Shown here: piece after piece, positions 52,139 to 54,806 of the stretch | Layout of the letters: the number at the start of each line of letters is the position of its first letter | Numbering within the stretch: position 1 is the stretch's first letter | Origin: an uncultured Alphaproteobacteria bacterium | GTDB lineage: Bacteria > Pseudomonadota > Alphaproteobacteria > Caulobacterales > Hyphomonadaceae | Assembly (NCBI GenBank): GCA_903831255.1 | Contig: CAIKWZ010000038.1 | Span: 1-64,000 of the forward strand | Direction of reading: 5' to 3' | Length of the DNA: 64,000 bases | The notes under the pieces: generated by a model | The model's input: only the letters and a program-made list of their open reading frames with translations | Databases searched by the model: none | What the model was told of the DNA's origin: nothing | Program-made: the position numbers and the translations under genes

Positions 52139-53587
52139 ATGGCTAAGACCGTTCTCGTCGTTGACGATGATCCCACTCAGCGCCGCCTGATGCAGGCTGC
52201 GGCCGAGAAGCAGGGGTTTCGCGCGCGTGTGGTGGACAACGGAGAGCTGGCGCTTGCCGAGGCCTCTGATCCCCGTCAGGGGGTGGACGTCGTCCTTCTT
52301 GATTTGGTGATGCCGGGACTGTCAGGAATGGAGACACTCGAGCGGCTGATGGAGCGCCGCCCGGATCTTCCCGTGATCGTGCTGACGGCGACGGGCGGGA
52401 TCGACACTGTCGTCCAGGCTATGCGGGCCGGAGCGATCGACTTTCTGGTCAAGCCCGCAAGCCCTGAGCGTATCGGGATTTCCATCCGCAACGCGTTGAA
52501 GGTTTCGGACCTGCGAGGAGAGGTGAAGCGCCTGACCCGAAAGTCTGAGGGCGCAATGGGCTTTGAAGACATGATCGCCGGCGCCCCGACCATGCGTCAG
52601 GTGGTGCGACTGGGCCAGCGGGCGGCGTCCTCCGGCATTCCTATTCTGATCCTCGGTGAAAGCGGGGTCGGCAAGGAAGTGATTGCAAGGTGTATTCAGG
52701 GAGCGTCAGACCGGGCTGGAAAACCCTTCGTCACCGTCAACTGCGGGGCGATACCGGAAAATTTGGTGGAATCGATACTCTTCGGCCACGAGAAGGGCTC
52801 ATTCACCGGAGCTCATGAGAAGAAGCTCGGAAAGTTTGTCGAGGCGGACCAGGGGACCCTGTTCCTTGATGAAGTCGGCGAGCTGCCCCTCGAGATGCAG
52901 GTCAAGCTGCTTCGGGTTCTGCAGGAGGGAGAGGTCGACGCTGTCGGTTCGCGTCGCCCGACCAAGGTCGACGTTCGGATTATCTCTGCGACCAATCGGG
53001 ATCTGGCGACTCAGGTGCGCGAAGGGCGGTTTCGCGAGGACCTCTACTATCGTCTAAATGTATATCCGATCGAGGTGCCTGCGCTTCGCGAGCGACGCGA
53101 AGACCTACCGGCCATGGTTGATCACTTCATCCGGCGGTTCAACGCTGAAGAGGGACGGACGGTTCCGGGCGTCACGGCCGAAGCGATGAGCATGCTGATG
53201 ACATACGATTGGCCGGGCAATGTCCGCCAGCTGGAGAATTCAGTGTTCAGGGCGATCGTGCTCTCGGACGGCGACGCCCTGACGCCCGATGACTTCCCTC
53301 AGATTTCGGGTCTGGTCTCTCCAGCGCGCTCCGTCTCAGAGGGGGCGGCGGTCATGACCACAGATGTGACGACCGGCCAGAAGCTCGCCATCAGCGACGA
53401 GGCGGGCGATCTTAGGACCCTCGAGGCGATTGAACGCGATCTCATCCAGTATGCGATCGACCACTACGCAGGGCACATGTCTGAAGTCGCCCGACGCCTT
53501 GGAATTGGTCGCTCGACCCTTTATCGGAAGGTCCGGGAGTATGATCTGAAGGTGCGCGACGACTTTGAGATCGATGAGGCTGTCTGA
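52139..53587 (+). CDS. Sigma-54-dependent response regulator, NtrC family (TacA-like)
   Basis: 482 residues. The receiver domain (1-120) has the acidic pocket DDD (9-11) and phospho-accepting D55 in LLDLVMPG. The AAA+ domain has GESGVGKE near 177 and GSFTGA (usually GAFTGA), the sigma-54 contact loop, here with Ser. The Fis-type HTH is at the end (ARRLGIGRSTLYRKV). Resembles Caulobacter TacA, which drives stalk genes, but the match is by eye and the target genes are unknown. No histidine kinase adjoins it. Confidence 0.9.
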   Translation: MAKTVLVVDDDPTQRRLMQAAAEKQGFRARVVDNGELALAEASDPRQGVDVVLLDLVMPGLSGMETLERLMERRPDLPVIVLTATGGIDTVVQAMRAGAIDFLVKPASPERIGISIRNALKVSDLRGEVKRLTRKSEGAMGFEDMIAGAPTMRQVVRLGQRAASSGIPILILGESGVGKEVIARCIQGASDRAGKPFVTVNCGAIPENLVESILFGHEKGSFTGAHEKKLGKFVEADQGTLFLDEVGELPLEMQVKLLRVLQEGEVDAVGSRRPTKVDVRIISATNRDLATQVREGRFREDLYYRLNVYPIEVPALRERREDLPAMVDHFIRRFNAEEGRTVPGVTAEAMSMLMTYDWPGNVRQLENSVFRAIVLSDGDALTPDDFPQISGLVSPARSVSEGAAVMTTDVTTGQKLAISDEAGDLRTLEAIERDLIQYAIDHYAGHMSEVARRLGIGRSTLYRKVREYDLKVRDDFEIDEAV

Positions 53588-53689
53588 TTAAAGAGGCCTC
53601 GGGGCGCGAGAGGCGTGGTCGTGACCGGAGGCGTGACCGGTCTCACAATCGCGCAACGTCCTCTCGCTGCGATCTGCTGACGGTCGTTT

Positions 53690-53731
53690 TTGAAACAGGA
53701 AAAGCCGGAAACGGCATATCCGCTTCCGGCT
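53690..53731 (-). terminator. Intrinsic terminator of rpsU
   Basis: On the minus strand, AGCCGGAA (53724-53731) pairs with TTCCGGCT (53703-53710) around a 13-base loop that itself has CGG/CCG, followed by TTTTCCTGTTT. It lies about 30 bases past the rpsU stop. Confidence 0.75.
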
Positions 53732-53759
53732 GTCAGTCTGAACCGACGTGGAAAAAGCC

Positions 53760-53966
53760 TCAGGTCTTGGGAAGAAGACCTTCGCGCTGAGCGCGCTTCC
53801 GAGCGAGCTTCCGAGCGCGACGAACGGCTTCCGCCTTCTCGCGGGCCTTCTTCTCGGACGGCTTCTCGAAATGGTTACGGCGCTTCATCTCCCGGAAGAG
53901 ACCTTCACGCTGCATCTTTTTCTTAAGCGCTTTCAACGCCTGGTCGACGTTGTTATCGCGCACCAC
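53760..53966 (-). CDS. rpsU: 30S ribosomal protein S21
   Basis: 68 residues from the first conventional start (GTG, 53964-53966). It reads [21 protein letters not shown] and ends [18 protein letters not shown], clearly S21. The family normally begins MVQI-x-VRDNN. Upstream in frame the codons are ATC GTT CAG ATC before GTG, so the expected Met codon is ATC at 53976-53978, six bases after GGAGAG. The true start may therefore be a non-standard ATC; an in-frame TGA lies just before (53982-53984). Divergent from the COQ9 gene. Confidence 0.92.
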
Positions 53967-54031
53967 GATCTGAACGATGTGTCACTCTCCATTAGTCAGG
54001 TCCGTCTCCTTTTGGGGATGCCGGACCGGAA

Positions 54032-54075
54032 GAATGCGTTCCCGTCACCCGGCATGCCGGGGGAAGAACGCATTC
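54032..54075. repeat. Nested inverted repeat in the rpsU-coq9 gap
   Basis: Outer arms GAATGCGTTC (54032-54041) and GAACGCATTC (54066-54075), perfect. Inside, the 14-bp perfect palindrome CCCGGCATGCCGGG (54048-54061). The element lies 54 bases upstream of the rpsU start on its strand, so it could fold in the rpsU leader or bind a protein in the shared promoter region. Confidence 0.85.
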
Positions 54076-54170
54076 AAACGCGTTGAATTCATCTCGCTCA
54101 TGACGAGCGATCCGCGGTGCGATAGCATAGGAAAACGGACCTGCCTACTGTTCCGTAAGAGGAGAGGGTC

Positions 54171-54806
54171 ATGAATCTGGGAGATCACGCGGCCACGCCG
54201 AGCGAACGCTTCAGGCTGAAGCTTCTGGAGGCCATGCTTGAGGTCGCTCCGGACCTCGGATGGACACCCGCCTCCCTGCAGGAGGCGCGCGAGCGATGCG
54301 GTCTGACGCAGGGAGAGGCGGATCTGGCCTGTCCTGGCGGGGTAGGCGATCTGCTGGAGGAATTCCATCATGTGATGAGCGCGATGGTCGGGCGGCGCTT
54401 GGGTGAGGCTGATCTCGTCGGTATGAAGATCCGGGACAAGGTGACGTTCGGGGTTCGCGCCTATCTTGAGGCGCTCGAGCCGTTCAGGCCTGCGGTTCGC
54501 AGGGCGATCGCCTCTCCCCTGGGCCTGTTCGCAGGCCCCAGGGGCCTTTGGGGCGTAGCGGATGCGATCTGGTCTGGTCTTGGAGATCGTTCGACCGACT
54601 TTAACTGGTATTCCAAGCGAACCATTCTGTCGGGGGTTATCGCCTCGACCCTTCTTGTATGGCTGGCTGGGGACGCTGCAGAGACCGAGGCGTTTTTGCA
54701 ACGAAGGATCGCCGACGTGATGACCTTCGAAAAGACAAAGAGCAAGGTACGATCGTTCTTCACCACTTCGCCGACCGAACCACAGCCTCCCGGATCAAGG
54801 TCCTGA
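54171..54806 (+). CDS. COQ9-family protein, ubiquinone synthesis
   Basis: 211 residues, helical, matching the COQ9 family: ERFRLKLLEAMLEVAPDLGWTP (a TetR-like start), RDKVTFGVRAYLEAL, DAIWSGLGDRSTDFNWYSKR and LVWLAGD. COQ9 helps ubiquinone synthesis by binding lipid and presenting the substrate to the COQ7-type hydroxylase. It is often found beside rpsU in alphaproteobacteria, as here. Confidence 0.88.
   Translation: MNLGDHAATPSERFRLKLLEAMLEVAPDLGWTPASLQEARERCGLTQGEADLACPGGVGDLLEEFHHVMSAMVGRRLGEADLVGMKIRDKVTFGVRAYLEALEPFRPAVRRAIASPLGLFAGPRGLWGVADAIWSGLGDRSTDFNWYSKRTILSGVIASTLLVWLAGDAAETEAFLQRRIADVMTFEKTKSKVRSFFTTSPTEPQPPGSRS

Follow-up and report, generated by a model that had tools for sequence, protein, structure and literature searches.

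The rpsU locus

The DNA analysed here, referred to as the window, is a stretch of 64,000 nucleotides from an uncultured member of the Caulobacterales. Its minus strand carries rpsU, the gene for ribosomal protein bS21 (S21). The predicted protein scored well above the curated cut-offs for bS21 (PF01165, 71 bits against 27; TIGR00030, 70.8 bits against 28.95) and was the sole PF01165 match found in its genome, which is 99.99% complete. The features of the locus and its upstream region are as follows.

53760..53978, minus strand: rpsU, ribosomal protein bS21, 72 codons plus TGA when read from ATC (TIGR00030 E 6e-20, PF01165 E 2.4e-19)
53964..53966, minus strand: GTG, the first conventional in-frame codon of rpsU, rejected as the start
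53976..53978, minus strand: ATC start codon of rpsU, from the sequence and a start column conserved in the order
53982..53984, minus strand: in-frame TGA upstream of the ATC, with one sense codon (CAC) between the two
53985..53990, minus strand: Shine-Dalgarno sequence GGAGAG, 6 nt before the ATC
53990..53992, minus strand: out-of-frame ATG overlapping the Shine-Dalgarno sequence (ATGGAG), from the sequence
54032..54075, minus strand: predicted hairpin from the fold, in what is probably the rpsU leader; a private feature
54120..54150, minus strand: conserved block, probable rpsU promoter, near-identical between the window and two genomes of the same genus
54171..54806, plus strand: COQ9-family gene divergent from rpsU (TIGR02396, a family named diverge_rpsU, E 1.8e-39)

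Read on the minus strand, the start region of rpsU is GGAGAG-TGACAC-ATC-GTT-CAG-ATC-GTG-GTG-CGC-GAT. A preliminary description of this DNA had reported the codons from ATC to GAT with GGAGAG 6 nt ahead of the ATC, and had named as the first conventional start the GTG at 53966-53964, four codons downstream and 18 nt past GGAGAG; our reading agrees on each point. It had also placed an in-frame TGA just before the ATC. The stop is present (53984-53982), but "just before" is loose, as CAC intervenes. This TGA rules out an in-frame start further upstream, and the sequence holds no in-frame ATG near the ATC. The list of open reading frames, restricted to ATG, GTG and TTG, begins the gene at the GTG (53760..53966).

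The 181 nt from 53940 to 54120 gave a predicted fold of -74.1 kcal/mol (z -3.77). When 21 same-genus copies were compared, the leader hairpin was partial in the nearest relative and absent from the rest of the genus, and in the predicted folds of these leaders pairing of the Shine-Dalgarno sequence differed from copy to copy. No Rfam family matched positions 53600-54300 up to E 1, and the known structured leaders of ribosomal protein genes were thus not matched. The block at 54120..54150 is the probable promoter of rpsU, judged from its conservation. Beside rpsU, at 52139-53587, lies a sigma-54-type response regulator gene that is NtrC-like but scores under the curated cut-off of each of the 25 families listed.

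Start codons of rpsU in the Caulobacterales

Start codons were surveyed in a sample of 61 relatives, 60 of which had an S21 match (67 copies), and a sample of 150 genomes from across the order, all with S21. Thirty-three genomes were shared, leaving a set of 178, and rpsU was found in 177; genome G012 gave no match. Direct reading of the start covered 138 copies from 131 genomes; for the remaining 46 genomes the letters are those matched by a CTG/TTG pattern.

Counted per genome (n=177), the start was AUH (ATC, ATA or ATT) in 99, CTG in 60, TTG in 10, ATG in 8 and GTG in none, so that 169 of 177 genomes have a non-AUG start and 159 have AUH or CUG; these counts are not independent events, because the samples are non-random and the genomes are related. 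The AUH genomes divide into 78 with ATC, 9 with ATA, 5 with ATT and 7 with ATA and ATC in two copies. Among the 138 copies read directly there were 85 ATC, 16 ATA, 5 ATT, 18 CTG, 6 TTG and 8 ATG starts. The codon varies by family. All 58 genomes of the window's own family (f1) use AUH; family f2 has 2 AUH and 28 CUG starts, f3 has 5 AUH and 25 CUG, f4 has 21 AUH and 8 AUG, and f5 has 13 AUH, 10 UUG and 7 CUG. All eight ATG copies begin MVEIYVRQNN, and they belong to two genera within a single family. Within the relatives sample, AUG or a near-cognate codon occupied the start column in 67/67 copies, and 57 of 60 genomes were non-AUG, the other three having ATG.

In pattern searches, a VQI-type rpsU starting with CTG or TTG was matched in 136 of 299 genomes of the order, and the pattern ATG-VQI-x-VR[DE]NN, which is blind to the MVEIYVRQNN form of the eight ATG copies, in 0 of 299. 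An ATH-start rpsU was matched in at least 118 stretches from named genomes, cultured strains included. The cultured genera among the matches listed are Maricaulis, Hyphomonas, Henriciella, Hirschia, Ponticaulis, Glycocaulis, Oceanicaulis, Alkalicaulis and Caulobacter, with strains such as Maricaulis maris DSM 4734, Hirschia maritima DSM 19733 and Ponticaulis koreensis DSM 19734. Most of the matches listed belong to families of the Caulobacterales or are labelled plainly as Alphaproteobacteria; two are metagenome-assembled genomes labelled Rhodobacterales and Hydrogenophilaceae. A second copy of rpsU is present in seven same-genus genomes, in each case with an ATC start.

Identity of the start codon

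Codon 1 of rpsU was AUG or one base off AUG in 138/138 copies from the order; of the 690 background codons at positions -5 to -1, 70 were of this kind. ATA made up 16 of the 106 AUH starts and was found in only 1 of 138 copies at codon 4, a conserved internal isoleucine. By this comparison, AUH at codon 1 acts like a start codon and unlike an isoleucine codon. Codon 2 is variously GTT, GTA, GTC or ATT and in no copy GTG, although 44 of 138 copies have GTG at codon 6. Among the 124 copies with AUH or CUG, 49 have no canonical in-frame start either within six codons upstream or in codons 2-6. A canonical codon does occur among codons 2-6 in 57 of the 124 and within six codons upstream in 21, and in those copies sequence alone does not exclude another start.

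A competing candidate in the window is the GTG at 53966, which would give a protein of 68 amino acids and make the ATC region an untranslated leader. No conventional in-frame start precedes it, the ORF finder chose it, and 43 of the 124 AUH/CUG copies have a GTG at codon 6. It sits, however, 20 nt after GGAG, and its counterpart, a GTG at codon 5, occurs in only 16 of the 124; moreover, the V-x-I codons upstream of it are conserved as protein and codon 1 is always AUG or a near-cognate. We therefore rejected the GTG as badly spaced and rarely conserved, and regard translation from it as highly improbable. The GTT at codon 2 was likewise rejected as a start, because codon 2 varies while codon 1 stays AUG or near-cognate. 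One GTC start has been reported in Caulobacter (PMC4117421).

The preliminary description had offered a sequencing error or the loss of the usual start as alternatives to a genuine ATC. The window's genome is in 76 contigs, which would leave some room for an error of sequencing or assembly. Non-AUG starts recur, however, in other assemblies of the same genus and across the order, more than 100 in all and cultured isolates among them, and an error would not recur in this way. Nor is there a usual ATG to have been lost, because ATG is rare at rpsU in the order (8/177). Either explanation would be still harder to credit than a GTG start, and on this comparative evidence the ATC of the window's rpsU is not explained by an error or by the loss of an ATG.

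Two control genes were read in 31 genomes of the order. infC, which encodes IF3, was readable in 30, G012 having a partial match without the locus, and began with AUH in 30/30 copies; in the window's own genome it begins with AUA after GGGAGA. The non-AUG rpsU of 169/177 sampled genomes and this AUA together support the earlier proposal that rpsU has a genuine, if rare, ATC start, which may limit synthesis as the AUU of infC does. rpsO, which encodes S15, was matched in 30 of the 31 genomes, 27 of its starts being read with a pattern that allowed any first codon and three with a pattern that required Met. It began with ATG in 30/30 copies, so that ribosomal genes in the order do not generally start with AUH, as far as one ribosomal control gene can tell. 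In its class of start codon, rpsU thus appears to go with infC.

Starts in the wider class

Of 289 genomes sampled across the Alphaproteobacteria, 274 had S21, four of them inside the order. Ninety copies of rpsU from 90 genomes outside the order were read, namely the 30 best-scoring and 60 picked one per family. The start was taken as the fifth codon before Arg if that was NTG and otherwise as the sixth, with one correction by hand (an ATG two codons upstream of an ATC). This gave 49 GTG, 16 ATG, 14 TTG, 9 AUH and 2 CTG starts. Weak rpsU starts are therefore common in the wider class by this rule, with 74/90 copies non-AUG, mostly GUG and UUG. The AUH starts outside the order come from nine families. 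In alignment, the short form of the protein (start-Gln-Val) begins where the long form (start-Val-Gln) has its codon 2, and the order may have shifted its rpsU start one codon upstream.

Shine-Dalgarno sequences

Shine-Dalgarno sequences were scored by the duplex formed with a 10-nt 16S tail, and a core was defined as GGAG, GAGG or AGGA within 20 nt. In copies from the order, a core was present before 106/106 AUH starts, 6/6 UUG, 14/18 CUG and 0/8 AUG. Median pairing energies were -6.7 kcal/mol for AUH (range -6.4 to -11.8), -11.2 for UUG, -8.8 for CUG and -4.4 for AUG, and AUG copies differed from all other starts in strength (rank test p = 1.5e-6). This contrast may represent a single evolutionary event, because the eight AUG copies without a core share MVEIYVRQNN and belong to two genera of one family. 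The trade-off between start and Shine-Dalgarno sequence is also limited to the order, because 15 AUG copies of the wider class have strong Shine-Dalgarno sequences (mean -10.9 kcal/mol).

The preliminary description had suggested aligning the rpsU leaders of close relatives. In such a comparison, GGAGAGT and its distance from the start were the same in 21/21 same-genus copies, while the leaders otherwise diverge. An out-of-frame ATG overlapping the Shine-Dalgarno sequence, as ATGGAG, occurs in 63 of 138 copies from the order, and could be a by-product of that sequence, a coupling device or a decoy. In several same-genus copies the tiny ORF of this ATG ends in a TAG that overlaps the ATA start. 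The order-wide codon, its Shine-Dalgarno sequence and the pattern of infC and rpsO show, by comparison, a conserved weak start of rpsU behind a good Shine-Dalgarno sequence.

Proposed control of S21 synthesis

The classic AUH-start gene is infC, in which an AUU or AUA start goes with autoregulation by IF3. In the order the rpsU start varies among codons that the initiator tRNA reads poorly, namely AUC, AUA, AUU, CUG and, in some genomes, UUG. IF3 discriminates against AUH and CUG, as is known from infC; GUG and UUG are tolerated starts, and AUH and CUG are weaker. We consider it probable that rpsU is initiated with fMet at its ATC and that initiation is held low, dependent on the Shine-Dalgarno sequence and responsive to IF3 or the 30S subunit in the manner of infC. 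A good Shine-Dalgarno sequence would position the 30S subunit at the ATC, where initiation with fMet would take place, and selection would keep initiation low yet dependent on that pairing. A shortage of IF3 on the 30S subunits, or another permissive state of theirs, would then raise the synthesis of S21, and replete subunits would lower it. rpsU would respond together with infC, whose start in these genomes is of the same kind. In this way the supply of S21, a late-binding and exchangeable protein that aids Shine-Dalgarno pairing, may be adjusted to the number of 30S subunits available.

The weak start would thus make S21 synthesis limiting and sensitive to the state of IF3 or the 30S subunit; it should track that state because IF3 discriminates against AUH and CUG. 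In Staphylococcus aureus, where infC starts with AUA, the yield of AUA and AUU reporters was about 10% of that from AUG in poor medium and, for one of them, as much as 30% in rich medium (PMC13009471). A CUG start is cited at 0.86% of AUG (PMC11497404). With yields of this kind, a weak start should have a large effect on S21. Selection normally favours AUG, above all in conserved and highly expressed genes, which makes its rarity in rpsU striking, and weaker starts tend toward compensation by stronger Shine-Dalgarno sequences (PMC5622118).

The same sequences would be expected if the weak start merely fixed the yield of S21 per mRNA at a low level and feedback played no part. Simple setting of the level explains the variation among weak codons, and in the wider class non-AUG is also the rule, mostly as the tolerated GUG and UUG. 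Against constitutive attenuation stands the window's own family, which is AUH-only even though GUG and UUG are available attenuators, as well as the absence of GUG throughout the order and a kind of codon that rpsU has in common with infC; we regard attenuation without feedback as possible, if on the unlikely side. Alternatively, the feedback might be carried by the ribosome itself, if 30S subunits without S21 initiate better at AUH or CUG behind a Shine-Dalgarno sequence, so that, with replete ribosomes, S21 would hold down its own synthesis. Such a loop would draw on the core found before every AUH copy, on the loose binding and exchange described for bS21 (PMC10931766) and on Flavobacterium johnsoniae, whose ribosomes without bS21 prefer rpsU through an extended Shine-Dalgarno sequence (PMC9976891). 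In Escherichia coli, however, S21 is said to provide Shine-Dalgarno pairing, from which positive feedback would be expected (PMC10931766), and pairing at rpsU is of ordinary strength in the order, not at the extreme of the Bacteroidota. Because the effect of S21 in proteobacteria may run the opposite way, we rank a loop through S21-deficient ribosomes lower and consider it unlikely.

Relation to known systems

The nearest parallel to the rpsU start is infC. Like infC, rpsU is a gene of the translation machinery with an AUH start behind a Shine-Dalgarno sequence. Unlike IF3, S21 does not read the codon, and in some families the rpsU codon is CUG or UUG. Conserved AUH starts with Shine-Dalgarno sequences are also described for cvfC1 (AUU) and ccpN (AUA) of S. 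aureus (PMC13009471). Neither of the two encodes a ribosomal protein, their Shine-Dalgarno sequences are extended, and their starts were demonstrated by footprints and reporters, whereas the rpsU start is deduced by comparison.

The autoregulated rpsU of F. johnsoniae is the same gene with a likewise unusual initiation region, but there an extended Shine-Dalgarno sequence occurs in a lineage that rarely uses them, while rpsU of the order combines a weak start with an ordinary Shine-Dalgarno sequence (PMC9976891). None of the AUH copies reached the pairing of the Bacteroidota type (< -13 kcal/mol), by our own duplex calculation rather than that of the paper. Another ribosomal protein gene whose weak start is typical of several families is the enterobacterial rpsT (S20), which starts with UUG; alphaproteobacterial rpsT is said to use AUG (PMC10931766). 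The UUG of rpsT is a tolerated start, and the AUH and CUG of rpsU are weaker.

Significance

A conserved non-canonical start with a Shine-Dalgarno sequence, as in infC, is a known arrangement; a search of the open-access literature found no description of its order-wide occurrence in rpsU. Starts outside AUG, GUG and UUG are very rare, with few known cases of conservation, and infC is the textbook one. In a profiling study of Caulobacter, CUG accounts for 0.7% of the starts of coding sequences and other near-cognates for 0.25%; rpsU is absent from the main text of that paper, and its table may list the start uncommented (PMC4117421). Gene finders limited to ATG, GTG and TTG can truncate or miss rpsU, as did the ORF list for the window, which starts it at GTG 53966.

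A broader proposal, tentative and in our judgement rather unlikely, is that the weak start of rpsU is an order-wide sensor of ribosome state, at which 30S subunits deficient in S21 or IF3 would initiate relatively well thanks to AUH or CUG with a good Shine-Dalgarno sequence, with S21 and IF3 co-regulated through one class of codon. If this is true, an autoregulatory circuit for S21 would have been reached independently of the extended Shine-Dalgarno circuit of the Bacteroidota. The regulation of S21 in E. coli is said to be unknown (PMC10931766). An order-wide weak start in a ribosomal protein gene suggests that the dosage of S21 is controlled at initiation, and the order includes the model organism Caulobacter, in which such control of S21 initiation is testable.
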